57,170 nucleotides of DNA, from positions 1-57,170 of the forward strand of contig JAOARP010000037.1 of assembly GCA_025210525.1 (NCBI GenBank), given 5' to 3'. The DNA is from Marinisporobacter sp. (GTDB taxonomy: Bacteria; Bacillota; Clostridia; Peptostreptococcales; Thermotaleaceae). Shown here one piece after another: positions 12,613-25,618 of the stretch. The first letter of the stretch is position 1. Every line of letters starts with the position of its first letter. The position numbers and the translations under genes are program-made. Under the pieces are notes generated by a model. The model did not search any database. It saw only the letters and a list, made by a program, of their open reading frames with translations, and was not told the origin of the DNA.

Positions 12613-12688
12613 GGGCGCATAGCTCAGCTGGGAGAGCACCTGCCTTACAAGCAGGGGGTCATAGGTTCGATCCCTATTGCGCCCACCA
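12613..12688 (+). tRNA. tRNA-Val(TAC)
   Basis: Cloverleaf seen by eye: acceptor GGGCGCA/TGCGCCC, anticodon stem CCTGC/GCAGG with TAC anticodon, GGTTCGATCCC T-arm region, and an encoded 3' CCA. First of five tRNAs in one operon. Confidence 0.95.
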
Positions 12689-12768
12689 TAAGTAGATATC
12701 CAAAATCTTTGATTTTGTGAGAGGTACTTAGTTAGCAAGAATTGCTAACATCCTTGCTTTTGTAGGAT

Positions 12769-12845
12769 GGCCCGGTAGTTCAGTTGGTTAGAATGCCAGC
12801 CTGTCACGCTGGAGGTCGAGGGTTCGAGCCCCTTCCGGGTCGCCA
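12769..12845 (+). tRNA. tRNA-Asp(GTC)
   Basis: Acceptor GGCCCGG/CCGGGTC, anticodon stem CCAGC/GCTGG with GTC anticodon, T-arm GGGTTCGAGCCC, encoded 3' CCA. Confidence 0.95.
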
Positions 12846-12849
12846 ATTT

Positions 12850-12925
12850 GCCCAGATAGCTCAGTCGGTAGAGCAGGGGACTGAAAATCCCCGTGTCGGT
12901 GGTTCGATTCCGCCTCTGGGCACCA
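12850..12925 (+). tRNA. tRNA-Phe(GAA)
   Basis: Acceptor GCCCAGA/TCTGGGC, anticodon stem GGGGA/TCCCC with GAA anticodon, encoded 3' CCA. Only 4 bases after tRNA-Asp. Confidence 0.95.
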
Positions 12926-13050
12926 TCAATAAATATTTTGGCATAAATGATGGTGCGTATGAATATTATGAATTGTAAGATGAAACTCAGAAACTGAAGT
13001 TCCTGAGTACTACAATTACACAAAATATGAAATTTTGGTAATTGCAGCAT

Positions 13051-13125
13051 GCGGAAGTGGCTCAGTGGTAGAGCATCGCCTTGCCAAGGCGAGGGTCGCG
13101 GGTTCGAATCCCGTCTTCCGCTCCA
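13051..13125 (+). tRNA. tRNA-Gly(GCC)
   Basis: Acceptor GCGGAAG/CTTCCGC, anticodon loop TTGCCAA giving GCC, T-arm GGGTTCGAATCCC, encoded 3' CCA. A 125-base spacer separates it from tRNA-Phe. Confidence 0.95.
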
Positions 13126-13130
13126 AATAT

Positions 13131-13205
<75 letters not shown>

Positions 13206-13216
13206 TAAGAAATTAG

Positions 13217-13243
13217 AATCCTAGTAGATGCTAGGATTTTTTT
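13217..13243 (+). terminator. Terminator of the tRNA operon
   Basis: AATCCTAG pairs perfectly with CTAGGATT around TAGATG, followed by TTTTT. Confidence 0.9.
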
Positions 13244-13299
13244 GTTTATTATATATGTGATATAATGAGGATGTTGATATAAAAGGGGAGGTATCCTTA

Positions 13300-15387
13300 T
13301 TGAAAGTTAAAGATCTGATGACAAAAGACCCTATTGTAGTAACGGTTAATGATACGCTAAATGATGTTGTGAAAATTTTTATATCGAATAGAATTGATGG
13401 CGCACCCATAGTTGATCAATGTGGGAAGCTTATAAGTATTATTACAAAAACTGATCTGATGAAGGCTTTTGTAAATCAAGTGTCTCCCTTTACTTCTATA
13501 GAAGAGATTTCTGCTAAACGGGTGATTACCATAAATGAAGATGCAGATATTAAAGAGGCTTGGGATGCAGGGGTAGGAAGACTACCTGTTGTTAATTGGA
13601 AGGGGAATTTAGTGGGGATTCTTACCCATACGGATTTATCAAAAAGAGTTTTAGAGAAGGAAGTTCAGGATTCTAAGGAGATTAAGGCAATCTTAAAGTC
13701 TACAAATAATGGAGTCATTATCGTGAATCAGGAAGGAATCATTACTAGATGTAATCCTTCTGCCATTAGGATATTGAATTTAGATTATAGAAACATGATA
13801 GGATTAGAAGTAGAGGCTGTTTTGCCAGAATTAAAGCTACATGAAACAATAAGTACGGGGATGACTACTTATACAGAAAAAATTGAGTTTAAGGATAAGT
13901 TTCTTATATGTGATCGAATTCCTTTATTTAAAGAGGAAGAGATTATTGCAGGTGTGATTGTATTTAAAGACAGTTCTGATTTACAAAGTACAATAGATGA
14001 ATTAAATACGGTGCAGCAAATATCAAAAAAATTAGATGCCGTTATTGAGTCCTCTTATGATGGTATTTATATCACAGATGGACAAGCCAATACCATGAAG
14101 ATTAACAAGGCGTACGAAAGAATTACTGGCGTTAAAAGAGAAGAAATGCTAGGGGCAAATATGATGGAATTAGAAAAATCAGGATGTATTTCTGAATCTG
14201 CAACGCTAAGGGTATTGAAGACTAGAAAAACCACTACTATACATCAAAAGTTTCGAACAGGAAAGAATGCATTAGTTACTAGTACTCCTATTTTCGATAA
14301 AGATGGAAAAATATCTATGGTTGTAACCAATGTTAGAGATATTACAGAACTTGCAAAACTAAAAAAACAGCTTGAAAAAAATAAAGAGCTGGCACAAAAG
14401 TATTATTCCGAAATTGAGGAAATGAGATTACAGCTTCTTAATACCTTACATATTATTGCGGAAGATGAAAAAATGCTTGAAACTATGAGGATCGCTAAAA
14501 GAGTTGCAAAAGTAGATACGACGGTATTGTTATTAGGAGAAACTGGTGTTGGAAAAGAAGAAGCTGCAAAATTTATTCATAAAAATAGTAATCGAAAAAG
14601 AAATCAATTTATAAAAATCAATTGTGGTGCAATTCCTATCAACTTAATTGAATCTGAATTATTTGGGTATGAGAAAGGGGCTTTTACTGGAGCTAATAAA
14701 GAAGGTAAAGTAGGGCTATTTGAAGTTGCAAATGGAGGAACCCTCTTTTTAGATGAAGTGGGAGAATTACCCTTAGATATGCAAGTAAAGCTTCTTCGAG
14801 CGCTGCAGGAAAAAGAAATTAAACGTGTAGGTGGAACGTTATCTATTCAAATAGATGTTCGGATTTTAGCAGCAACCAATCGTGACCTTGAGGAAATGGT
14901 AAAGCAAAAACGATTCCGAGAAGACCTTTACTATAGGTTAAATGTTGTGCCTATCAATATTCTTCCTTTAAGAGAAAGAAGAGGAGATATTTTGCCTCTT
15001 GTACATTATTTTCTTTCTGAGTTGAATAAAAGATATAATTGGGAAAAAGAATTTAGCAAAGATGCACTAGAAGTATTATATGAATATGATTGGCCAGGAA
15101 ATGTTAGAGAATTAAAAAATATTGTAGAAAGAGTATTTATTATGAGTAGTGAAAATAAAATGACTTCTGAAGATCTCCCTAAAAATATAGTTGGTAGCAA
15201 TAAAACTAGGGATATTACTTTGGGGGATGGTATTGTACTGCTAAAGGATGCAGTTGCAAAGGTAGAGATGGAGCTACTTGATAAAGCTTTTGAAAAACAT
15301 GGGAATGTCAGAAGTGCAGCGAAGGCTTTGGGAATAGATGCGTCTACATTTGTTAGGAAAAGAAAAAAATATAAAGAAGCAAAATAG
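13300..15387 (+). CDS. Sigma-54-dependent transcriptional activator with CBS and PAS sensor domains
   Basis: This 695-residue bacterial enhancer-binding protein has two CBS motifs (residues about 1-120, possible adenine-nucleotide sensing), two PAS domains (about 125-235 and 245-355) and a short coiled coil (355-390). A sigma-54-interacting AAA+ ATPase follows (about 395-625; Walker A GETGVGKE, sigma-54 loop GAFTGA at 460-465, Walker B LFLDEVGELP), then a Fis-type helix-turn-helix (about 655-690). It starts with TTG, supported by GGGGAGG 9 bases upstream. It lies immediately before a sigma-54 promoter that drives a 4-hydroxybutyryl-CoA dehydratase gene. The repeated dyads next to it are probable binding sites. 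Which ligand the sensor domains detect is unknown. Confidence 0.93.
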   Translation: MKVKDLMTKDPIVVTVNDTLNDVVKIFISNRIDGAPIVDQCGKLISIITKTDLMKAFVNQVSPFTSIEEISAKRVITINEDADIKEAWDAGVGRLPVVNWKGNLVGILTHTDLSKRVLEKEVQDSKEIKAILKSTNNGVIIVNQEGIITRCNPSAIRILNLDYRNMIGLEVEAVLPELKLHETISTGMTTYTEKIEFKDKFLICDRIPLFKEEEIIAGVIVFKDSSDLQSTIDELNTVQQISKKLDAVIESSYDGIYITDGQANTMKINKAYERITGVKREEMLGANMMELEKSGCISESATLRVLKTRKTTTIHQKFRTGKNALVTSTPIFDKDGKISMVVTNVRDITELAKLKKQLEKNKELAQKYYSEIEEMRLQLLNTLHIIAEDEKMLETMRIAKRVAKVDTTVLLLGETGVGKEEAAKFIHKNSNRKRNQFIKINCGAIPINLIESELFGYEKGAFTGANKEGKVGLFEVANGGTLFLDEVGELPLDMQVKLLRALQEKEIKRVGGTLSIQIDVRILAATNRDLEEMVKQKRFREDLYYRLNVVPINILPLRERRGDILPLVHYFLSELNKRYNWEKEFSKDALEVLYEYDWPGNVRELKNIVERVFIMSSENKMTSEDLPKNIVGSNKTRDITLGDGIVLLKDAVAKVEMELLDKAFEKHGNVRSAAKALGIDASTFVRKRKKYKEAK

Positions 15388-15421
15388 TTGCAAAAATGCA
15401 ATTTTGTTGCATGTTTACAAC
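15387..15421 (+). promoter_or_regulatory. Two GTTGC-N6-GCAAC-like dyads (upstream activator site, distal)
   Basis: GTTGCAAAAATGCAAT (15387-15402) and GTTGCATGTTTACAAC (15406-15421) are near-palindromes with five-base half-sites and 6-base spacers. The first begins 258 bp before the -24 element at 15645 and overlaps the activator's stop codon. They match the perfect dyads upstream of the second dehydratase promoter, so I infer activator binding. Confidence 0.65.
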
Positions 15422-15491
15422 AAAACCTAAAGATAGGAGAACTATCATAAAAAAACCTTAAAAAGAAATATATGGAATGAGTAATTTGAAA

Positions 15492-15521
15492 AAACCGTTG
15501 CATTTTAGCAACGGTTTTTTT
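15492..15521 (+). terminator. Terminator-like hairpin containing a perfect GTTGC-N6-GCAAC dyad
   Basis: A 10-bp stem (AAACCGTTGC with GCAACGGTTT, loop ATTTTA) followed by a T run has the form of an intrinsic terminator for the activator gene. Its core, 15497-15512, is also a perfect copy of the dyad seen at the other sites and begins 148 bp before the -24 element, matching the proximal site of the second promoter. It may serve both purposes. Confidence 0.75.
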
Positions 15522-15644
15522 ATTTATGTAGAGGAGAAGGTTGTGAAAAAAAGAATAGGTAATAAATTTATTATATGGATTAAACTTGCAAAATACATAC
15601 ATTATGGAATAATTTATAAGAAATATAGATAATTTCATAAAAAA

Positions 15645-15660
15645 TGGCATATCTCTTGCT
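15645..15660 (+). promoter_or_regulatory. Sigma-54 (-24/-12) promoter of the first dehydratase gene
   Basis: TGGCATATCTCTTGCT matches the TGGCAY-N5-TTGCW consensus with exact GG-to-GC spacing. It lies 48 bases before the ATG. The 320-base gap between activator and dehydratase thus holds dyads, hairpin and this promoter. Confidence 0.9.
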
Positions 15661-15707
15661 TTATTAAGGACATATCGAAAATAATTCCAAAAGGGAGCTG
15701 ATTTTAA

Positions 15708-17198
15708 ATGGCATTAATGACAAAAGAGCAATACCTTGAAAGTTTAAGAAAGTTAGACATAAAGGTGTACATGTTTGGAGAATTAGTTGAAAATATTGTG
15801 GACCATCCAGTGATCAGACCATCTATTAACTCAGTAGCTATGACTTATGAATTAGCACAAGATCCTCAATATGAAGATTTAATGACAGCTACATCAAATT
15901 TAACAGGTAAAAAAGTAAATCGTTTTACACATTTACATCAAAGCACTGATGATTTAAGAAAGAAAGTAAAAATGTTAAGACTTCTTGGACAACACACTGG
16001 ATCATGTTTCCAAAGATGTGTTGGGATGGATGCTTTCAATGCTGTATATAGTACAACTTTTGAAACTGATAAGGCTCATGGAACAAACTATCATGAGAAT
16101 TTCAAAAAATATATGGAATTTGTACAAGAAAATGACTTAGTAGTAGATGGAGCCATGACTGACCCTAAAGGAGATAGAAGTTTAGCGCCAAGTAAGCAAG
16201 CTGATCCTGATCTTTTCTTACATGTAGTAGAGCAAAGAGAAGATGGTATTGTAGTAAGAGGAGCAAAAGCTCATCAAACAGGATCTATTAACTCCCATGA
16301 ACATTTGATCATGCCAACAATTGCTATGAGAGAGGGAGACGAAGCTTACGCTGTATCTTTTGCTATTCCAACAGATGCTAAAGGTATTTATATGATCTAT
16401 GGAAGACAAAGCTGTGATACAAGAAAGTTAGAAGATGGAGCAGATATTGATGTAGGAAATAAAGAATTTGGAGGACAAGAAGCGTTAGTAGTATTTGATG
16501 ATGTATTTATTCCAAATGATAGGATTTTCTTAAATGGAGAAGTAGAGTTTGCAGGTATGTTAGTAGAAAGATTTGCAGGATATCATCGTCAAAGCTATGG
16601 TGGATGTAAAGTAGGTGTTGGTGATGTACTTATAGGAGCAGCAGCTCTTGCAGCAGAATTTAATGGAGCAGCAAAAGCTTCTCATGTTAAAGATAAGTTA
16701 ATCGAAATGACTCACTTGAATGAAACATTATACTGCTGTGGTATTGCCTGTTCAGCAGAAGGATATCCAACAGAGGCTGGAAACTATCAAATTGATTTAC
16801 TACTTGCAAATGTATGTAAGCAAAATGTAACAAGATTCCCATATGAAATCACAAGACTTGCAGAAGATATTGCTGGTGGACTAATGGTAACAATGCCATC
16901 AGAGAAAGATTTCAAACATCCAGTAATAGGACCTGTTTGTGAGAAATACTTTAAGGGAGTAAATGTTGTTCCAACAGAGCATAGGATGAGAGTGTTAAGA
17001 CTCATTGAAAATATGACATTAGGAACAGCAGCAGTAGGATATAGAACAGAATCAATGCATGGAGCAGGATCTCCACAAGCACAAAGAATTATGATTGCAA
17101 GACAAGGAAACCTTGCTCATAAGAAGGATTTAGCAAGAAGAATTGCTAGAATCGATGAAGTATCTGTAGCAGCAAGAGAAGCAGCAGCTACTAAATAA
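15708..17198 (+). CDS. abfD: 4-hydroxybutyryl-CoA dehydratase / vinylacetyl-CoA delta-isomerase, copy 1
   Basis: AbfD dehydrates 4-hydroxybutyryl-CoA to crotonyl-CoA by a radical mechanism with FAD and a [4Fe-4S] cluster, and isomerises vinylacetyl-CoA. The 496-residue protein is of the AbfD family known from Clostridium aminobutyricum. Cluster ligands Cys100, Cys104, His293 and Cys300 are visible (CFQRC and YHRQSYGGC), with Tyr297, Glu258 and Glu449 (YRTESMHG) at the positions of known active-site residues. Start ATG has AAAGGGAG upstream in a leader nearly identical to that of copy 2. It is driven by the sigma-54 promoter at 15645 and followed by a strong terminator, so it may be transcribed alone. 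It differs from copy 2 at about 29 residues. Confidence 0.95.
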   Translation: MALMTKEQYLESLRKLDIKVYMFGELVENIVDHPVIRPSINSVAMTYELAQDPQYEDLMTATSNLTGKKVNRFTHLHQSTDDLRKKVKMLRLLGQHTGSCFQRCVGMDAFNAVYSTTFETDKAHGTNYHENFKKYMEFVQENDLVVDGAMTDPKGDRSLAPSKQADPDLFLHVVEQREDGIVVRGAKAHQTGSINSHEHLIMPTIAMREGDEAYAVSFAIPTDAKGIYMIYGRQSCDTRKLEDGADIDVGNKEFGGQEALVVFDDVFIPNDRIFLNGEVEFAGMLVERFAGYHRQSYGGCKVGVGDVLIGAAALAAEFNGAAKASHVKDKLIEMTHLNETLYCCGIACSAEGYPTEAGNYQIDLLLANVCKQNVTRFPYEITRLAEDIAGGLMVTMPSEKDFKHPVIGPVCEKYFKGVNVVPTEHRMRVLRLIENMTLGTAAVGYRTESMHGAGSPQAQRIMIARQGNLAHKKDLARRIARIDEVSVAAREAAATK

Positions 17199-17213
17199 GA
17201 AATTTTCATAAAC

Positions 17214-17240
17214 AAAGGGGGAAGCTCCTTCCCCTTTTTA
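17214..17240 (+). terminator. Terminator after dehydratase copy 1
   Basis: GGGGAAG pairs with CTTCCCC around CTC, preceded by A and followed by TTTTT. Confidence 0.88.
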
Positions 17241-17388
17241 ATTTTAAAAAATTTGGCGAAAAATGTTGTATGAGAAAGTGTTGGGAAATTATATATATTC
17301 GCAAAATAGGACTGATAAGAAATTATATTTATATTTTAAAATTCAAAAAGCTATTACAACAGAAAAAAATAAAAAAGGAGGAAACATT

Positions 17389-18756
17389 ATGGCAATGAAA
17401 AGAGAACTAGGAAAAGAACAGTCATTTATTCCAGCAGGACCATTTAAGATTCGTATTCCATTTATCCATTACAAATTTGAATGGGCAGATTATATTCAGG
17501 GATTGTTAATGTGTGCAGTCTGTCTTGGTGCTGTGCCTATGCTTCAAGAATATTTAGGAATGCCTTTTGAAGTAGCTATGGCGGTAGTTGTTTTAAATGG
17601 ATTATTCTATTGTGCTCATGTATTTTTAGGAGACCCGGTAGTACCTGGATGGGTAACACCAGCCATTCCGCTTTTAATGCTTCATGTAAGTCAATATGAA
17701 ATAGGTCCTGAAAGAATGCAAGCGTTAATTGCATTTGAGATGTCTTTAGGTATTTTAGCTATTATTTTAGGTATTACAGGACTTGGTAAAAAAATTGTTT
17801 CTATTGTTCCGAATGCAATGCAATCAGGGATCATAATGGGGGCAGGTTTTGCTGCTGTAATCCTTATATTTAAGAAGGGTGCTAAGTTTGATAGTTTTCC
17901 ATTATCGATTATTATTTGTGTAGGAATAGGTTTTTATCTTTTATTCTCAAATCATTTTAAAAGCATCAGAGAAAATAACTCTATATTAAAGGTTATTGCG
18001 AATTTAGGGATTTTGCCAGTTGTTGTTTTAGCCATTGTAGTAGGTCCTATGCTTGGGGAGACACCATGGCCACAAATTGAGTGGGGAATTACAAAACCTG
18101 CATTCGCTACACTTTGGAAAGAATGGACATTCTTGGGAGTAGGTTTTCCGCCAGTAAGCATGTTTGTTGAAAGTTTACCTACAGTTATTTCTGCGTATAT
18201 CGTATTATTTGGAGATATGATTCAATCCCAAGCATTACTTGAAGATGCAGGAAAGGTTCGTACAGATGAACATATTGATTACAATCCTAATAGATCTCAT
18301 TTAGTATTTGGTTTAAGAAACTTCATTATGTCTATTATTGGACCAGACTTAACTATGTGTGGACCTTTATGGGCAGCAATGCAGGTTGTTATTTGTGAAC
18401 GTTATAAGCATGGAAGAAAAGCCATGGATTCAATTCATGGTGGAGCAGGATCTTTTAGATTTGGTACTTTTACAGGTTACTTAATTCTTCCGATTGTAAC
18501 CCTTTGTAAACCTATATTAGGAATTGCTCTTGCGTCTACTATGTTGATTCAAGGATATGTTTCTGTACGTGTTGGAGTTATGAAGGCTCGCACATTTAAT
18601 GATTTAGGTATTGCTGGTGTAATGGGTGCTGTTCTTTGTACTCGTGGAGCTGCATGGGGACTAGCAGCAGGGATTGTTCTTTGCTTACTTGTTAATTTAG
18701 GAAATAAACCAGAATATGATGTTTATATATTTGGGGAAGAAGAAAAAGCAGCTTAA
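17389..18756 (+). CDS. NCS2-like (xanthine/uracil permease superfamily) membrane transporter
   Basis: This 455-residue protein has about 12 hydrophobic segments and no signal peptide. Features resembling the NCS2/SLC23 fold are the short helices ending GWVTPAIPLL near residue 88, the QSGIIMGAGFAAV segment near 145, and the GGAGSFRFGTFTGY region near 350. It is only a distant relative of xanthine or uracil permeases. Start is ATG at 17389, chosen because AGGAGG lies 7 bases upstream; an upstream in-frame start would add 42 residues without an RBS or homology. It sits between the dehydratase copies, so import of 4-hydroxybutyrate or a related carboxylate is an inference. A strong terminator separates it from copy 1, and its promoter was not identified. 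Confidence 0.72.
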   Translation: MAMKRELGKEQSFIPAGPFKIRIPFIHYKFEWADYIQGLLMCAVCLGAVPMLQEYLGMPFEVAMAVVVLNGLFYCAHVFLGDPVVPGWVTPAIPLLMLHVSQYEIGPERMQALIAFEMSLGILAIILGITGLGKKIVSIVPNAMQSGIIMGAGFAAVILIFKKGAKFDSFPLSIIICVGIGFYLLFSNHFKSIRENNSILKVIANLGILPVVVLAIVVGPMLGETPWPQIEWGITKPAFATLWKEWTFLGVGFPPVSMFVESLPTVISAYIVLFGDMIQSQALLEDAGKVRTDEHIDYNPNRSHLVFGLRNFIMSIIGPDLTMCGPLWAAMQVVICERYKHGRKAMDSIHGGAGSFRFGTFTGYLILPIVTLCKPILGIALASTMLIQGYVSVRVGVMKARTFNDLGIAGVMGAVLCTRGAAWGLAAGIVLCLLVNLGNKPEYDVYIFGEEEKAA

Positions 18757-18770
18757 TTTAAATAAAAGGA

Positions 18771-18800
18771 TGCAGATAGTCTTTGGCTATCTGCAATTTT
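18771..18800 (+). terminator. Hairpin between permease and selenoprotein genes
   Basis: TGCAGATAG pairs perfectly with CTATCTGCA around a 7-base loop, followed by ATTTTCT. It is a weak terminator or a processing hairpin. Confidence 0.55.
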
Positions 18801-18818
18801 CTGTATGGAGGAGATTTT

Positions 18819-19139
18819 GTGAATGTTACTATTACGCAAGAAGCAAAAACGTATATAAAAAAACAAAAGGCTCCTTATGTTATTATTCATATGATTCCAG
18901 AAGAAACAAGTGGAGGCTGAGGTTGTGGAAATACAAAAAGGTATTATATTCCTTCCGTGAGAATGGGATTTAAAAGGTTAAAAGATATAAACAAATACAA
19001 GAAAGTAAATGTTGACGGAATAGGTGTTTATTTGTATTCTAAGATAGAAAGCCAAGAAGAAGGAATTACTATTTTTCTTGAAAAAATATTTTTTCAAAGA
19101 AAATTAGGAGTAAAAGGAATATTGCTTCAGTTAGAGTGA
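18819..19139 (+). CDS. HesB-like selenoprotein (in-frame TGA read as selenocysteine)
   Basis: The frame from GTG 18819 (AGGAG 5 bases upstream) to TGA 19137 encodes 106 residues if the TGA at 18918-18920 is read as selenocysteine 34, in the context SGG-U-GCGNTKRYY. Both flanks are good coding sequence, and the family of HesB-related small (seleno)proteins is known to carry Sec or Cys at this position, aligned with a conserved cysteine of the HesB/IscA A-type Fe-S carrier. Cys36 is two residues later. Downstream, GGAA-ATAC can pair with GTAT-TTCC around AAAAAG (18927-18952), a weak SECIS candidate. It lies 14 bases before DUF1847 and between two dehydratase genes. A Cys-free nonsense pseudogene is less likely given the intact flanks. 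Confidence 0.85.
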
Positions 19140-19153
19140 GGGAGGATTTTTTT

Positions 19154-19768
19154 ATGTTTACATGTGCAAATTGTGAAATTATAGGATGTCGAAAAGGAGA
19201 GTTTGAAAAAGCACCTGCTAATTGTCCTATAAAAGAGGAAGAGGTTAGAGAAAGAGCAAGGGAAGAGTATGAGAAAGAAGGAATTAAAAAGTTTATAGAT
19301 GGAACCATAAAGCTTGAAAAAGAAGGACGAGGTAGATGGTCTCGAGTTGAAGAAACCATACAATTTTGCAAGATGATGGGTTATAAAAAAATTGGTGTGG
19401 CTTTTTGTTTAGGGCTTAAAAAGGAAACGAAAATATTTGTAAAAATTCTTAGAGAGCATGGTTTTGAAGTTTCATCAGTCATTTGTAAAAATGGAGGAAT
19501 TGATAAAAAAGCATTAAGTATAGATGGGGATGAAGATTTGAGAGGTGTAAGCTGTAATCCAATCGGGCAAGCGATGCTGCTTAACAAAGAGAAGACGGAA
19601 TTCAACATTACTGTAGGACTTTGTGTAGGACATGATGCGTTGTTTTTTAAATACGCTGAGGCACCAACTACAGTGCTTCTTACAAAAGATAGGGTGTTAG
19701 CTCATAATCCTGTTGGAGCTTTAAATTGTGCTCATAATTTTTATAAAAGAAAATTAAAAAACAAATAA
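19154..19768 (+). CDS. DUF1847 family cysteine-rich protein
   Basis: A 204-residue protein of the uncharacterised, probably metal-binding DUF1847 family. The N terminus has clustered cysteines (MFTCANCEIIGCRKG and then a Cys near residue 23), with further cysteines at CKMMGYKK, FCLGLKKET, ICKNGG, SCNPIGQ and LCVGHD. The last is a conserved CVGHD motif, and LNCAHNF is near the end. I place the start at ATG 19154, with GGGAGG 6-7 bases before; an upstream in-frame GTG overlaps the selenoprotein stop. It is 14 bases after the HesB-like gene, so the two are probably translated from one mRNA. Function unknown; a link to Fe-S or redox chemistry of the dehydratases is only inferred from position. 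Confidence 0.85.
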   Translation: MFTCANCEIIGCRKGEFEKAPANCPIKEEEVRERAREEYEKEGIKKFIDGTIKLEKEGRGRWSRVEETIQFCKMMGYKKIGVAFCLGLKKETKIFVKILREHGFEVSSVICKNGGIDKKALSIDGDEDLRGVSCNPIGQAMLLNKEKTEFNITVGLCVGHDALFFKYAEAPTTVLLTKDRVLAHNPVGALNCAHNFYKRKLKNK

Positions 19769-19772
19769 AAGT

Positions 19773-19807
19773 GTTGCCAAAATGCAACGGGCGTGCAAGA
19801 GTGCAAC
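19773..19807 (+). promoter_or_regulatory. Distal activator dyad plus extra half-sites upstream of dehydratase copy 2
   Basis: GTTGCCAAAATGCAAC (19773-19788) is a perfect GTTGC-N6-GCAAC dyad starting 256 bp before the -24 element at 20029. Two further TGCAA half-sites follow by 19807. It parallels the distal site of the first dehydratase promoter. Confidence 0.7.
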
Positions 19808-19882
19808 AAAGATGTAGATGTAGTAAAATGCTTATATGGAACAAAAATTGACTATTATTTAACATGAAATTATGATAAAAGT

Positions 19883-19898
19883 GTTGCTATTTTGCAAC
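19883..19898 (+). promoter_or_regulatory. Proximal activator dyad upstream of dehydratase copy 2
   Basis: GTTGCTATTTTGCAAC is a perfect GTTGC-N6-GCAAC dyad starting 146 bp before the -24 element, compared with 148 bp at the first promoter. No T run follows, so it is not a terminator. The 392-base gap between DUF1847 and copy 2 holds these sites and the promoter. Confidence 0.75.
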
Positions 19899-20028
19899 GA
19901 ATGATAAAAATATTTTTTCCTAAAATGAAAAGATGTAAGTGGATCGTGAAAGGCTGAAATGCAGTAAATATAAATGTTATATGGATTATCTATCTAAAAA
20001 TCGAAAAAAGTTGCATGCTATTAAATAA

Positions 20029-20044
20029 TGGCATGGGACTTGCT
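20029..20044 (+). promoter_or_regulatory. Sigma-54 (-24/-12) promoter of the second dehydratase operon
   Basis: TGGCATGGGACTTGCT matches TGGCAY-N5-TTGCW exactly in spacing. It lies 117 bases before the ATG, a longer leader than that of copy 1. Confidence 0.9.
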
Positions 20045-20160
20045 TTAATGTATGAGTGTAAAAAAATAATTGGAAAATAATTAAATTTTTTTCAAAATGT
20101 ATGTACAAAAATAAAATTATTTGTTAAAATAATAACAAATCGAAAGGGAGCTGATTTTAA

Positions 20161-21651
20161 ATGGCATTAATGACAAAAGAGCAATATATTGAAAGCTTAA
20201 GAAAATTAAATATAAAGGTGTACATGTTTGGTGAATTAGTTGAAAACTTTGTAGACCATCCAGTAATTAGACCATCTATTAATTCAGTTGGAATGACTTA
20301 TGAATTAGCAAATGATCCTCAATATGAAGATCTAATGACAGCTACATCAAATTTAACAGGTGAAAAAATAAATCGTTTTACAAACTTACATCAAAGTACT
20401 GATGACTTAAGAAAGAAAGTAAAAATGTTAAGACTTCTTGGACAAAAAACTGGATCATGTTTCCAAAGATGTGTTGGTATGGATGCTTTTAACTCAGTAT
20501 TCAGTACAACTTTTGAAGTTGATAAAGCACATGGAACAAACTATCATGAAAATTTCAAAAAATATTTAGAATTTGTGCAAAAAAATGATTTAACAGTAGA
20601 TGGAGCTATGACTGACCCTAAAGGGGATAGAGGTTTAGCACCAAGTAAGCAAGCTGACCCTGACCTTTTCTTACATGTAGTAGAGCAAAGAGAAGATGGT
20701 ATTGTAGTAAGAGGAGCAAAAGCTCACCAAACAGGAGCAGTAAACTCTCATGAACATTTAATCATGCCAACAATTGCTATGAGAGAGGGAGACGAAGCAT
20801 ACGCTGTATCATTTGCTATCCCATCAGATGCTGAAGGTATTTTCATGATCTACGGAAGACAAAGCTGTGATTCAAGAAAGACAGAAGAAGGTGCAGACAT
20901 TGATGTAGGTAATAAAGAGTTTGGTGGACAAGAAGCATTAGTAGTATTTGATGATGTATTTATTCCAAATGATAGAATCTTCTTAAATGGAGAAGTAGAA
21001 TTTGCAGGAATGCTAGTAGAAAGATTTGCAGGATACCATCGTCAAAGTTATGGTGGATGTAAAGTAGGTGTTGGTGATGTGCTTATAGGAGCAGCAGCAC
21101 TTGCAGCAGAATTCAATGGAGCAGCAAAAGCTTCTCATATTAAAGATAAATTAATCGAAATGACTCACTTAAATGAAACATTATACTGCTGTGGTATTGC
21201 CTGTTCAGCAGAAGGATATCCAACAGAAGCTGGAAACTATCAAATAGACTTACTACTTGCAAATGTATGTAAGCAAAATGTAACAAGATTCCCATATGAA
21301 ATCACAAGACTTGCAGAAGATATTGCAGGTGGACTAATGGTAACAATGCCATCAGAGCAAGATTTCAAACATCCAGTACTTGGACCTGTTTGTGAGAAAT
21401 ATTTCAAGGGAGTAAATGTAGTTCCAACAGAGCATAGAATGAGAGTATTAAGACTTATTGAAAATATGACATTAGGAACAGCAGCAGTAGGATATAGAAC
21501 AGAATCAATGCATGGAGCAGGTTCTCCACAAGCACAAAGAATTATGATTGCAAGACAAGGAAACCTTGCACATAAGAAGGATTTAGCAAGAAAAATTGCT
21601 AGAATAGATGAAGCTTCTGTAGCAGCAAGAGAAGCAGCAGCTACTAAATAA
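20161..21651 (+). CDS. abfD: 4-hydroxybutyryl-CoA dehydratase / vinylacetyl-CoA delta-isomerase, copy 2
   Basis: A second 496-residue AbfD with the same reaction and cofactors as copy 1. Cluster ligands Cys100, Cys104, His293, Cys300 and the active-site Tyr297, Glu258 and Glu449 are all retained, so both copies should be active. By eye it differs from copy 1 at about 29 positions (about 94% identity), and about 24 of these fall in the first 260 residues, leaving the C-terminal half almost unchanged. The ribosome binding region and first codons are nearly identical to copy 1. It leads the operon containing the Nfu-like gene, the small CGGC gene, the CoA-transferase and the dehydrogenase, under the sigma-54 promoter at 20029. 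Confidence 0.95.
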   Translation: MALMTKEQYIESLRKLNIKVYMFGELVENFVDHPVIRPSINSVGMTYELANDPQYEDLMTATSNLTGEKINRFTNLHQSTDDLRKKVKMLRLLGQKTGSCFQRCVGMDAFNSVFSTTFEVDKAHGTNYHENFKKYLEFVQKNDLTVDGAMTDPKGDRGLAPSKQADPDLFLHVVEQREDGIVVRGAKAHQTGAVNSHEHLIMPTIAMREGDEAYAVSFAIPSDAEGIFMIYGRQSCDSRKTEEGADIDVGNKEFGGQEALVVFDDVFIPNDRIFLNGEVEFAGMLVERFAGYHRQSYGGCKVGVGDVLIGAAALAAEFNGAAKASHIKDKLIEMTHLNETLYCCGIACSAEGYPTEAGNYQIDLLLANVCKQNVTRFPYEITRLAEDIAGGLMVTMPSEQDFKHPVLGPVCEKYFKGVNVVPTEHRMRVLRLIENMTLGTAAVGYRTESMHGAGSPQAQRIMIARQGNLAHKKDLARKIARIDEASVAAREAAATK

Positions 21652-21673
21652 GAATGAAATGTTAATTTAAAGA

Positions 21674-21693
21674 GGGGTGGAAAATTCCACCCC
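21674..21693 (+). other. Intercistronic hairpin without T run
   Basis: GGGGTGGAA pairs perfectly with TTCCACCCC across a minimal loop. No T tract follows, so it more likely stabilises or processes the abfD message than terminates it, which could raise dehydratase levels over the downstream genes. Confidence 0.65.
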
Positions 21694-21715
21694 AACCTTA
21701 TAATGGGGTGATGGG

Positions 21716-21994
21716 ATGTTTAATAGAGTAAATGAAGTAATAGATAAAATCATAAGACCAAAGCTAAAAGAACATTATGGAGATATTGAGCTTGTAGAAG
21801 TGAAAGAGGGTATTGTAAAAGTAAAGTTTTTAGGAGCTTGTAGTGGATGCCCATCTGCAAAATTTACTCTTGAGGATATTGTTCTTCGTGATTTACAGGA
21901 AAAGATTCCTGAGATTAAGGAAGTTTTATTAGTGACAGAAGTTAGTCAAGACCTTATAGATATGGCAAAGAAAATATTAAATAAGGAAAAGTAG
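21716..21994 (+). CDS. NifU C-terminal (Nfu-type) Fe-S scaffold protein
   Basis: A 92-residue protein made only of a NifU C-terminal domain. The GACSGCPSA motif (residues 40-48, CxxC) is the family's Fe-S cluster-binding signature; such proteins carry or deliver [4Fe-4S] clusters. N- and C-terminal helices around it fit the Nfu fold. The ATG has GGGGTGATGGG just upstream. It is 64 bases after dehydratase copy 2 and 5 bases before the next small gene. Since AbfD needs a [4Fe-4S] cluster, a dedicated maturation role is a reasonable inference, not shown by sequence. Confidence 0.88.
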   Translation: MFNRVNEVIDKIIRPKLKEHYGDIELVEVKEGIVKVKFLGACSGCPSAKFTLEDIVLRDLQEKIPEIKEVLLVTEVSQDLIDMAKKILNKEK

Positions 21995-21999
21995 GTAGA

Positions 22000-22269
22000 T
22001 TGGCTTTGAAAATAGGAATAAAGTATTGTGGAGGATGTAACCCTCGGTATGATCGAAAAAAGTTTATAGAAGACGTACAAAAGGCTTTAGGAGAAAATTT
22101 CATTTTTGAAATAGCAAGAGAAGGAAATGCATATGATTTCCTTTTGGTAGTAGGTGGATGCACCAACTGTTGTGCGAGTTTTGCAAATATTCCTTCAAAA
22201 AAGGGTGTATTTTGTATAAAAAGGCATGATGACTATGAAAAGGTGATTGAAGCTATTAAAAAAATATAG
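22000..22269 (+). CDS. Small cysteine-rich protein with CGGCNPRYDR motif, unknown function
   Basis: An 89-residue protein that I do not recognise as a named family. It begins KIGIKYCGGCNPRYDRKKF (CxxC near residue 10-13), then has GGCTNCCASF near 53-61 with three more cysteines, and a Cys near 72. The layout suggests a ferredoxin- or thioredoxin-fold-sized protein binding a metal or cluster; similar CGGCNPxxDR proteins occur in anaerobic clostridial gene clusters, as far as I recall. Start TTG is at 22000, 5 bases after the Nfu-like gene; TTG at 22006 is an alternative. It sits between the Nfu-like gene and CoA-transferase in the 4-hydroxybutyrate operon. Confidence 0.75.
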   Translation: MALKIGIKYCGGCNPRYDRKKFIEDVQKALGENFIFEIAREGNAYDFLLVVGGCTNCCASFANIPSKKGVFCIKRHDDYEKVIEAIKKI

Positions 22270-22292
22270 AATGAAGGGAAAGGGTGGAGAAA

Positions 22293-23594
22293 ATGAGTTG
22301 GCAAGATGTTTATAAGTCAAAGCTTACAACTGCTGAAGAAGCTGTAAAGCATATAGAGTCAGAAAATAGAGTTGTTGTGGGTCATGCATGTAGTGAACCT
22401 TTAGCACTAGTAGATGCAATGGTTGCAAATAAAGACCAATACAAAGATGTGGAAATCGTTCACATGGTAGCTATGGGAAAAAGCGAATATGCAAAACCAG
22501 AAATGGCACCTCACTTTAGACACAATGCATTATTCGTAGGAGGAACTACAAGAAAAGCAGTGAATGAGGCAAGAGCTGATTATACACCTTGTTTTTTCAC
22601 AGAGATTCCAAGACTTTTCAAAGAAGAATATTTACCAGTAGACGTGGCACTTATTCAACTAAGTCGTCCAGATGAACATGGATATTGTAGCTTTGGTCTT
22701 TCTGCTGATTACACAAAACCAGCAGCAGAATGTGCAAAAATTGTAATTGCAGAAGTGAATGATCAAATGCCTAGAACTATGGGTTCTTTCATCCATATTT
22801 CTGAAATAGATCATATTGTTGAAACTTCTTATCCAATTATAGAACTTCAACCTCCAAGAATTGGTGAAATTGAAAAAGCTATTGGTGAAAACTGTGCAAA
22901 ATTAGTTGAAGATGGTTCAACTCTTCAATTAGGAATTGGAGCTATTCCAGATGCGGTACTTCTATTCTTAAAAGATAAAAAAGATTTAGGGATTCACTCT
23001 GAAATGTTCTCTGATGGTGTTGTTGAACTAGTAGAGGCAGGCGTTATCAATAATAAAAAGAAAACTTTACATAAAGGAAAAATGATTGTAACATTCTTAA
23101 TGGGTACAAAGAGACTTTATGATTTTGTCGATAACAATCCAACTGTAGAATTACATCCAGTAGATTATGTAAATAATCCTTGTGTCGTGATGCAAAATGA
23201 AAACATTATTTCTATTAACTCTTGTATCCAAGTGGATTTAATGGGTCAAATTGTATCAGAAAGTATAGGATTAAAACAATTCAGTGGTGTAGGAGGACAG
23301 GTTGATTATATTCGTGGAGCAAGTATGGCAAAGGGAGGAAAATCCATTATTGCTATTCCATCTACAGCATCAAAGGGTAAAGTATCTCGTATTGCTCCAT
23401 TTATTGATCAAGGTTCAGCTGTTACAACATCACGTAATGATGTACACTATGTAGTTACTGAATATGGTATTGCTCAACTTAGAGGAAAGAGCTTAAAAGA
23501 AAGAGGGAAAGCTCTTATCAATATTGCTCATCCAGACTTTAGACCGATGTTAATAGAAGAATGGGAAAGAAGATTTAACTCAAAATTTGAATAG
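22293..23594 (+). CDS. abfT: 4-hydroxybutyrate CoA-transferase
   Basis: AbfT transfers CoA from acetyl-CoA or butyryl-CoA to 4-hydroxybutyrate, making the dehydratase substrate. The 433-residue protein is a family I-type acetyl-CoA hydrolase/transferase. Its catalytic Glu237 sits in GIHSEMFSDGVV, matching the known active-site Glu of the C. aminobutyricum enzyme. LGIGAIPDAV near 213-222, FSGVGGQVDYIRGA near 330 and the C-terminal INIAHPDF are also conserved. The ATG at 22293 aligns with the start of that enzyme (MSW compared with MDW); an in-frame GTG at 22284 would add three residues. It is followed 20 bases later by the dehydrogenase gene. Confidence 0.94.
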   Translation: MSWQDVYKSKLTTAEEAVKHIESENRVVVGHACSEPLALVDAMVANKDQYKDVEIVHMVAMGKSEYAKPEMAPHFRHNALFVGGTTRKAVNEARADYTPCFFTEIPRLFKEEYLPVDVALIQLSRPDEHGYCSFGLSADYTKPAAECAKIVIAEVNDQMPRTMGSFIHISEIDHIVETSYPIIELQPPRIGEIEKAIGENCAKLVEDGSTLQLGIGAIPDAVLLFLKDKKDLGIHSEMFSDGVVELVEAGVINNKKKTLHKGKMIVTFLMGTKRLYDFVDNNPTVELHPVDYVNNPCVVMQNENIISINSCIQVDLMGQIVSESIGLKQFSGVGGQVDYIRGASMAKGGKSIIAIPSTASKGKVSRIAPFIDQGSAVTTSRNDVHYVVTEYGIAQLRGKSLKERGKALINIAHPDFRPMLIEEWERRFNSKFE

Positions 23595-23614
23595 AGAATA
23601 GAAAGGGGATTATT

Positions 23615-24730
23615 ATGAAATTTTTTAAACTACCAACACAAATCCATAAATTTGACGACTTTAAAGGCTTTGCAGAAGAATTCCAAATTGGAGAAAATGA
23701 TTTAGTTCTAACTCACCAATTCCTTTTTGATCCTTTCATGAAGGGGTTAGATTTAAAAGCTGATTTTATCATGCAAGAAAAGTATGGTGTAGGTGAGCCT
23801 TCAGATGAAATGATCGATGAAATTTTAAAAGAAGTAGTTGATAAGCCATATAAAAGAATTATTGCAATCGGTGGAGGATCTGTAATCGATATTGCAAAAT
23901 TATTAATCTTTAAAGATGGTAAAAATGCATTAGATATGTTTGAAAAGAGAATTGATTTCATAAAAGACAAGGAATTAATCATTGTACCTACGACTTGTGG
24001 AACAGGAAGTGAAGTAACAAATATTTCTATTGCAGAAATCAAGTCAAAGCATACAAAAATGGGTCTTGCTATTGATGAATTATATGCTGATTATGCGGTA
24101 CTTGTTCCAGAACTTATAAAAGGTCTTCCATACAAATTCTTTGTATTTAGTTCAATTGATGCATTAATCCATGCTATTGAATCTTATGTATCACCAAATG
24201 CTAATGATTTTACACAAATGATCAGTGTAAAAGCTATTGAGATGCTTTTAAAAGGATACATGGAAATTATTGAAAAAGGTGAAGATCACCGTCAAGAATT
24301 GTTAGAAGATTTTGCAGTTGCAAGTAACTATGCAGGAATTGCATTTGGAAATACAGGCGTTGGAGCTGTACATGCATTATCTTATCCATTAGGAGGTACA
24401 TATCATGTTCCTCATGGAGAAGCAAACTATCAATTCTTTACAGAAGTATTTAAAACTTACAATCGTTTAGATCCTAATGGAAAAATCAAAGCATTAAATA
24501 CTTTCTTAGCTTCTTTATTAAATGTAGATGAAGCAGAAGTATATGATGCTATTGAGAAAGTACTTGATAAGCTTTTAAGTAAAAAAGCTTTAAAAGAGTA
24601 TGGTATGAAGGAAGAAGAAATTGAAAGCTTTACAGATAGTGTACTTGAAAAGCAACAAAGACTTCTTGCAAACAACTATGTACCACTATCAAGAGAAGAA
24701 ATTTTAAATATCTATAAGAATTTATACTAG
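23615..24730 (+). CDS. 4-hydroxybutyrate dehydrogenase (iron-containing alcohol dehydrogenase)
   Basis: A 371-residue group III (iron-dependent) alcohol dehydrogenase that most likely interconverts succinate semialdehyde and 4-hydroxybutyrate with NAD(H). GGGSVIDIAK near residue 86-95 is the nucleotide-binding motif. TTCGTGSEVTN near 127 and the metal-binding positions in DALIHAIESYVS (about 181-192), HALSYPLGG and HGEAN are present. It resembles the C. kluyveri/C. aminobutyricum 4-hydroxybutyrate dehydrogenase in length and N-terminal residues. It is the last gene of the operon and is followed by a strong terminator. No succinate-semialdehyde dehydrogenase or GABA aminotransferase is in the window, so the source of the semialdehyde is not known. 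Confidence 0.92.
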   Translation: MKFFKLPTQIHKFDDFKGFAEEFQIGENDLVLTHQFLFDPFMKGLDLKADFIMQEKYGVGEPSDEMIDEILKEVVDKPYKRIIAIGGGSVIDIAKLLIFKDGKNALDMFEKRIDFIKDKELIIVPTTCGTGSEVTNISIAEIKSKHTKMGLAIDELYADYAVLVPELIKGLPYKFFVFSSIDALIHAIESYVSPNANDFTQMISVKAIEMLLKGYMEIIEKGEDHRQELLEDFAVASNYAGIAFGNTGVGAVHALSYPLGGTYHVPHGEANYQFFTEVFKTYNRLDPNGKIKALNTFLASLLNVDEAEVYDAIEKVLDKLLSKKALKEYGMKEEEIESFTDSVLEKQQRLLANNYVPLSREEILNIYKNLY

Positions 24731-24747
24731 AAATTTCATATAAAGAG

Positions 24748-24786
24748 ACAAGAATTCCTTTCATCAAGGAGTTCTTGTTTTTTTTG
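24748..24786 (+). terminator. Terminator of the 4-hydroxybutyrate operon
   Basis: ACAAGAATTCCTT pairs with AAGGAGTTCTTGT (one T-G pair) around a 5-base loop, followed by eight T. Confidence 0.92.
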
Positions 24787-24853
24787 AGATTAAAGTATAT
24801 CTATAGAATATAAAATGATATACTATGGAAAAATAATAGAATTAGGTGAGTAA

Positions 24854-25618
24854 ATGAATGTCAAATTTTTAGAAAAAACTTTTTTACCCCAGAAAAATGT
24901 GAAGCTAGTAGTTGTGGATGGTCGTGCATCAGATAACTTGGTGAATAATTTAAAACATATGGGTATAAATATAATAAAGACACCTTATTGTAGAGAACTA
25001 TATAATGCCATTTCTTATCATCCAGATATATTATTACATCCTATAAATGGGAAAGATATGATAGTAGCTCCTAACGTCTATGAAGGTTTAGAAAAACCTC
25101 TTAAAAGATATGGAGTGAATGTAATAAAAGGAGAAACGGTGTTAAAGAGGAACTATCCAGATAATATTGCATATAATATAGCAAGAGTTTCGAACTTTGC
25201 TATACATAATTTTAAATACACAGATCCATTAACATTAAAATTACTTGAAGAGAATCAAGTAGAGTTGATTCATGTAAAGCAAGGATATTCAAAATGTTCA
25301 ATCTGTATTGTGAATGAAAAAGCCATCATTACATCTGATAGAGGTATTGCAAAAACAGTAGAAAAGTATGGAATAGACCCTTTAGTAATAAAACCTGGAT
25401 ACATAGATCTTTCGGAGCTTGAGTATGGATTTATTGGAGGGATTTCAGGGCTTATTGGCAAAAACAAAATAGCTTTTTCAGGATTGTTAGAACACCATCC
25501 TAATTATGATGAAATTCTAAAGTTTCTAGAAAAGTATGAAGCAAAGCCCATATTTCTTGAAAATAAAAAACCAATAGATATTGGCTCCATCATACCTATT
25601 TTAGAAATGGCATATTAA
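24854..25618 (+). CDS. DUF6873 family GME-fold protein
   Basis: A 254-residue protein that I assign to an uncharacterised clostridial family described as having the guanidino-modifying-enzyme (GME) fold. Visible conserved pieces are VVDGRASDNL near 20, HPDILLHPING near 58, a Lys/Gly/Tyr-rich GYSKCSICIVNEKAIITSDRG-like segment near 145-165 and FIGGISGLIG near 197. A His and a Cys in the middle are plausible catalytic residues but cannot be verified. The ATG has AATTAGGTGAG upstream. It stands after the 4-hydroxybutyrate terminator and before ytxC, so it is probably unrelated to that pathway. No function is proposed. Confidence 0.72.
   Translation: MNVKFLEKTFLPQKNVKLVVVDGRASDNLVNNLKHMGINIIKTPYCRELYNAISYHPDILLHPINGKDMIVAPNVYEGLEKPLKRYGVNVIKGETVLKRNYPDNIAYNIARVSNFAIHNFKYTDPLTLKLLEENQVELIHVKQGYSKCSICIVNEKAIITSDRGIAKTVEKYGIDPLVIKPGYIDLSELEYGFIGGISGLIGKNKIAFSGLLEHHPNYDEILKFLEKYEAKPIFLENKKPIDIGSIIPILEMAY

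Follow-up and report, generated by a model that had tools for sequence, protein, structure and literature searches.

What controls the two 4-hydroxybutyryl-CoA dehydratase-like genes (abfD) of Marinisporobacter sp., and why does a palindrome upstream of one of them also form the apex of a hairpin behind a regulator gene? Both genes lie in the stretch of DNA analysed here (contig JAOARP010000037.1, 57,170 nucleotides, referred to as the window), each behind a putative sigma-54 promoter and a set of GTTGC-N6-GCAAC dyads. The reading that we favour, with a probability of about 0.83, is that the dyads are the upstream activating sites of a XanR-type activator encoded at 13300, that there are three of them per abfD promoter, and that the third one, site C, at promoter 1 also forms part of a terminator hairpin.

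The activator, the dehydratase genes and the dyads

The activator gene (13300..15387, + strand) is predicted from its open reading frame and from profile matches. The matches cover two CBS domains, two PAS domains, the Sigma54_activat AAA+ module and a Fis-type helix-turn-helix (HTH) domain, with 242 bits for PF00158 and 33 bits for PF02954, and the GAFTGA motif can be read in the translation. An adjacent sigma-54 activator (enhancer-binding protein) with CBS and PAS domains, as proposed in the first-pass annotation, is thus borne out. In the same genome, a single rpoN match passes the cut-off of its family (TIGR02395, 464 bits vs 277). Five tRNA genes (Val, Asp, Phe, Gly and Cys) are located immediately 5' of the activator gene, at 12613-13205.

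Copy a of abfD (15708..17198, + strand) is assigned by profile and by a structure match to the solved 4-aminobutyrate-pathway dehydratase 1u8v. Copy b (20161..21651, + strand), found by profile and by a search with copy a, is 94% identical to it. On the same strand, copy b is followed by a run of genes (21716..24730, from ORFs and profile matches) for a NifU-like protein (21716-21994), a hypothetical protein (22000-22269), a CoA hydrolase/transferase (22284-23594) and an iron alcohol dehydrogenase (23615-24730). The order is that of the target operon abfD-nifU-hyp-ach-golB in the predicted XanR regulon (Nie, Dong and Yang 2019, PMC6615313). It is this gene order that assigns the activator at 13300 to the XanR type, probably correctly, as one part of the joint explanation given above.

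Two further genes are found between the dehydratase copies. The product of the transporter gene at 17389-18756 has a strong match to 7tak, the solved structure of the membrane protein PurT (E 1e-110), and no match in Pfam and NCBIfam searches up to E 1. The small ORF at 18819-19139 has an in-frame TGA in a GGUGCG context and scores 48.3 bits with the NCBIfam model for CC/Se motif (seleno)proteins, where the cut-off is 40. The genome of the window also contains a selB match that exceeds its cut-off, and the ORF is probably a selenoprotein gene.

The -24/-12 elements of promoter 1 (TGGCATATCTCTTGCT, 15645..15660, + strand) and promoter 2 (TGGCATGGGACTTGCT, 20029..20044, + strand) are found by pattern search exactly where they had been placed before, and both recur in relatives. 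By itself, the pattern is about as frequent in the window as chance predicts: when up to one mismatch is allowed, 4 matches are found where 3.76 are expected. The elements gain weight because abfD in relatives carries the element too.

The sites, which have no strand of their own, were identified by a dyad search. At promoter 1, site A (GTTGCAAAAATGCAAT, 15387..15402) has one mismatch and begins on the final base of the activator's stop codon. Site B (GTTGCATGTTTACAAC, 15406..15421) also has one mismatch, and site C (GTTGCATTTTAGCAAC, 15497..15512) is exact and forms the apex of a hairpin. At promoter 2, sites A (GTTGCCAAAATGCAAC, 19773..19788) and C (GTTGCTATTTTGCAAC, 19883..19898) are exact. 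The degenerate site B (CGTGCAAGAGTGCAAC, 19792..19807) scores under the motif threshold; it was read by eye from its register and its counterparts in G001 to G003, and entered into the layout table by hand. Site C of promoter 2 has 1 further pair outside the dyad and therefore no long hairpin. Site order and A-C spacing (110 bp) are identical at both promoters. The first-pass annotation had listed four exact dyads, two per promoter, starting 258 and 148 bp before the first element and 256 and 146 bp before the second. Positions and distances are right, but the dyad at 15387 is not exact, and a third site per promoter (15406 and the degenerate 19792) had been missed.

The window contains five dyads with at most one mismatch, against 0.62 expected, a number that none of 100 shuffles reaches. 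Across the 4.69 Mb of the genome there are four exact dyads, of which three are in the window and the fourth sits in a long ORF. With at most one mismatch, there are 28 matches genome-wide, compared to 10 for the reversed pattern. Ten of the 23 matches outside the window were inspected. All ten are inside ORFs of at least 100 codons, and one has a -24/-12-like match beside it (one mismatch, 3-kb locus).

Recurrence of the sites in relatives

The activator was searched for in a relatives set of 59 genomes, in the family (16 genomes), and in samples from the order (393) and the class (391); the sets overlap and include the genome of the window (G000). At strict cut-offs, it is matched in 10 of the 16 family genomes, 19 of the 393 order genomes and 10 of the 391 class genomes. 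An abfD match at cut-off is present in 21 of the 59 genomes of the relatives set, and in five of six further genomes. Forty upstream regions were tabulated. G671 and G521 stand outside this table. G671 has the array 3' of the activator gene and 5' of an aldehyde-dehydrogenase-like gene, and its abfD match is cut; no such sites were found in G521. By eye, sites A and B behind the activator in the G671 locus (L136) combine into a single extended inverted repeat, aaaatagttGTTGCG ... CGCAACaactatttt. The aldehyde-dehydrogenase-like gene after the array appears, also by eye, to have its own -24/-12 element.

The motif derived from 47 sites in 16 loci is GTTGCA-N4-TGCAAC. In 19 held-out loci with the promoter element, certain of which are closely related to training loci, it finds 43 sites, against 1.2 in simulations (maximum 3 in 40 runs), with at least one site in 18 of the 19. 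At the same threshold, no site is found at five abfD-like genes that lack the -24/-12 element (G033, G022, G021, G032 and the second one in G034). Motif and layout recur alongside orthologous activators in several families, and the array abuts the activator gene in most of the loci that were found via the activator. The dyad was also looked for directly before the abfD-like genes of relatives, and is present there in several families. Because motif and layout recur in this way, the dyads are predicted to be the sites of the activator, and the earlier suggestion to this effect is supported by the comparison of genomes.

No site was detected behind the activator gene itself in G198, G129, G151, G713 and G521. 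In G713, G151 and G129, the sites are located before abfD, which in these genomes is not adjacent to the activator gene. G198 has a single exact dyad, 469 bp before the -24/-12 element of abfD. The sites of G151 and G129 have the same layout and a GTTTCA-N4-TGAAAC-like sequence, which is degenerate in G129. In aligned activators, no single HTH residue tracks this change of motif. The idea that HTH and motif had coevolved was abandoned, since G671 and G594 share the special-looking HTH residues, yet keep GTTGC-type sites. Many distant orthologs of the activator align only from about residue 230 onward, and the CBS pair is therefore not a general feature.

The layout is A, then B after 17-21 bp, then C after mostly 73-101 bp, then the promoter, and it is found across families. 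The A-B spacing is within its range in all 29 three-site loci, and the B-C spacing in 31 of 33 loci, the exceptions being G594 (57 bp) and G020 (33 bp). Site C is 77-198 bp before the -24/-12 element except in G023 and G034 (365 bp), where an ORF that reads as NifU-like lies between the two. The start of site A was located relative to the last base of the stop codon in 18 three-site loci whose activator gene is immediately upstream, and it falls in a range from 18 bases before that base to 19 bases after it. The matched spacing that had been noted at the two promoters of the window is thus kept in relatives as far as order and spacing within the array are concerned, and these are the conserved part of the layout. 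The equality of the distances from C to the promoter is not kept: for paired promoters, they are 148/156 bp in G001, 121/151 bp in G002, 149/147 bp in G003 and 110/132 bp in G009. The near-equal 148/146 bp of the window is local or due to chance, and not a rule. The B-C spacings of 21 loci are phased at 10.5 bp with a Rayleigh p of 0.009, a value that comes from five periods and three spacings tried and is uncorrected for kinship, and helical phasing is not claimed.

The first-pass annotation had also suggested that the whole control region was duplicated together with the gene. In this simple form, the suggestion is unsupported, and we consider it rather unlikely. It would agree with the identical order and spacing of the sites at both promoters, with the identity of the coding copies over their first 1050 bases (91.4% in G000, 97.4% in G002), and with G009, where the two arrays align better than shuffles (52 vs 35) over about 43 bp around site C. 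Against it, the control regions a and b score 36, 36, 38 and 32 in G000 to G003, whereas the best of 100 shuffles score 42, 40, 45 and 35; orthologous a-a and b-b control regions of the genus score 175-484. Moreover, the similarity between a and b begins about 20 bp before the ATG and ends at the stop codon. G009 has two arrays and one abfD match, so arrays and gene copies are not tied to each other. It is possible either that only the coding part was copied, or that gene and control region were duplicated together long ago and the coding copies alone were evened out afterwards; the 97.4% identity in G002 may reflect gene conversion. A tree computed from 24 abfD protein rows leaves 9 of its 21 inner branches open and does not date the duplication.

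A transporter gene, the counterpart of the PurT-like gene in the window, follows the array behind the activator in two places, namely in G009 and in a second cluster of L002 (a Marinisporobacter MAG). A remnant of an abfD leader before the G009 transporter is hinted at, no more, by a local score of 30, equal to the best of 200 shuffles. The second activator copy of L002 (7998-9631, 73% identical) is split into two ORFs, and is either a broken gene or an assembly error; it still has a full three-site array and hairpin behind it.

A terminator-like hairpin around site C

The dyad at 15497 is the apex of a longer palindrome, AAAAAACC-GTTGC-ATTTTA-GCAAC-GGTTTTTT, which the first-pass annotation had not noted. 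According to folding and a terminator scan, it forms a terminator-like hairpin of 15 pairs with a T-rich tail (15487..15522, + strand), with a folding energy of -19.7 kcal/mol compared to a mean of -4.2 for shuffled sequences. Among the 22 terminator-like sites in 13000-25000 (4.9 expected), it has the longest stem. The sequence has what is expected of an intrinsic terminator, namely a stable hairpin followed by a T-rich stretch, 3' of a gene.

Stems were counted outward from the dyad, with one mismatch allowed. At least seven further pairs are present at 20 of 33 C sites, and at none of 61 A or B sites. The 33 C sites are those without G033, G022, G021, G032, G034x and G041, with G198 labelled apart, and for G011 an outer weak match was dropped from both stem and layout counts. 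Of the 23 loci that were judged, by reading them, to have the activator directly upstream, 18 carry the stem; among the 10 others, 2 do (Fisher p 0.005, uncorrected for kinship). G541, G594, G027, G023 and G034 have no stem despite the activator directly upstream, and G129 has one without an adjacent activator. T-rich tails (at least 6 T in eight) follow 18 of the 20 stem-bearing C sites. They do not discriminate, because the DNA is AT-rich and C sites without stem often have them too.

Covariation was tested on an unselected alignment of 23 rows (A3). An alignment of 18 rows (A1), 96% paired, had been picked for having the stem and was not used as the test. In A3, 85% of cells pair, against 42-54% when the partner is slid by one to three columns. 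There are 56 cells with two-sided changes (19.7 in shuffles), and 10 pairs show a two-sided change, a number that 19 of 500 shuffles reach. The inner pairs of the dyad are nearly invariant, while the outer stem changes in matched pairs and accepts G-T pairs. In five loci without adjacent activator, the same columns pair in 60% of cells, compared to 57% in shuffles. As judged from these comparisons, the predicted enhancer site C doubles as a terminator-like hairpin behind the activator gene.

The same overlap was looked for at three further activator genes of this genome. At two of them, no -24/-12 element lies within 520 bp. The third does have one, and the palindromes and the hairpin in its vicinity do not clearly overlap. 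At L163 (G000 contig 4, 10300-11450), the DNA after an activator gene contains a hairpin with its T run, TGCA-type palindromes, and a -24/-12 element 236 bp behind the stop codon. The packing is similar, but site and terminator do not clearly overlap.

It appears highly improbable that the dyad at 15497 is a terminator hairpin only, with a coincidental likeness to the other dyads and with A and B as the sole sites of promoter 1. The sequence does fold as a textbook terminator-like hairpin directly 3' of the activator gene. However, in G000b, G001b, G002b, G003b and G009b a C site with the same core lies at the same distance from B and has no hairpin. The fixed core in the 23-row alignment also speaks against this reading, because a terminator by itself requires no fixed core, and the reading was rejected on both grounds. 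Another possibility, which we regard as very unlikely, is that the outer stem serves DNA binding, as a longer palindrome, or a cruciform, rather than termination. Palindromes look alike in DNA and RNA, and T-rich tails are common in the region regardless. Still, the stem is missing from all 61 A and B sites and rare at C sites away from the activator gene (2 of 10). Its outer sequence is free to vary provided that it pairs, and the tolerated G-T pairs are better suited to RNA than to a DNA site.

We likewise see little room for the idea that a regulator other than the activator at 13300 binds the dyads. It could draw on the change of motif in one lineage, which no HTH residue that could be named matches, and on the genomes in which activator and abfD are not adjacent. 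Against this, array and activator gene abut in most loci where the activator was found, the absence of the element at five abfD-like genes goes together with the absence of a site, and the tandem sites, at 100-260 bp from a -24/-12 element, are where such activators usually have theirs, judging from the available text of PMC6615313.

Proposed mechanism and known systems

At each abfD promoter, the activator would find two closely spaced tandem sites, A and B, and, some 90 bp beyond them, the lone site C. When bound to these sites, it may loop to the sigma-54 RNA polymerase at the -24/-12 element. An intracellular signal, received by the sensor part of the activator, would then cause the polymerase to be opened at the abfD promoter. 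The predicted array of promoter 1 lies where the activator gene ends: A shares a base with its stop codon, and the hairpin has C at its apex. The palindrome of this site C would act as a binding site in DNA and as a hairpin in RNA, and the hairpin would end activator transcripts before they run through sigma-54 promoter 1. At promoter 2, the sites are present and the hairpin is not. The composite element could further be a switch, in which the activator at A, B and C alters transcription at the end of its own gene, either by blocking polymerase or by letting some transcripts read into abfD. We find this unlikely, if somewhat less so than a foreign regulator. If it were true, occupancy of the sites would fire abfD and also set the amount of activator mRNA.

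The RocR enhancer of Bacillus subtilis is located behind rocG, and thus is also a sigma-54 type enhancer immediately 3' of a gene. In contrast to the case described here, the gene before it, rocG, is not that of the activator, and we know of no overlap with a terminator.

The XanR regulon is the closest match. XanR is a sigma-54 activator group with a distinct binding motif, and in the available text of PMC6615313, sites of sigma-54 activators are mostly at 100-250 bp and most groups have multiple sites. The gene order behind copy b is that of its target operon. The differences are that Table 1 of that paper gives XanR for Clostridium only, whereas the window and its relatives represent other genera, that the target is duplicated, that a PurT-like transporter gene stands behind the array in some relatives, and that the available portions of PMC6615313 do not mention a terminator overlap. 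Among the papers searched, this is the only one in which XanR occurs together with Clostridium and sigma54. COG2368, the dehydratase family, is named as sigma-54 regulated, mainly in Clostridia, in PMC12316311.

For a DNA motif inside a terminator, the closest precedent is set by the DNA uptake signals of Neisseria and Pasteurellaceae, which form terminators (Kingsford 2007, PMC1852404). In both cases, an intrinsic terminator takes its stem from a sequence that is also recognised at the DNA level. However, the uptake signals occur in a thousand or more copies per genome, whereas here a likely activator-binding site is found in the activator's own terminator, at one place per genome. Literature searches found no report of an activator's own binding site inside its terminator, although reports in other wording could be missed. 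The element is thus, by its predicted features, a sigma-54 enhancer of a kind already predicted, and its overlap with a terminator was not found reported in these searches.

For motif finders, the case is a caution, as such a site would be called either a terminator or an operator. For several families of Clostridia, the sites provide a testable map of gene control in 4-hydroxybutyrate fermentation. They also point to an enhancer element that is seemingly conserved for its palindrome in DNA and, in one location, also for its hairpin in RNA, with a near-fixed core and an outer stem that drifts in pairs. If the overlap works in the cell, binding of the activator would be tied to the end of its own transcript.
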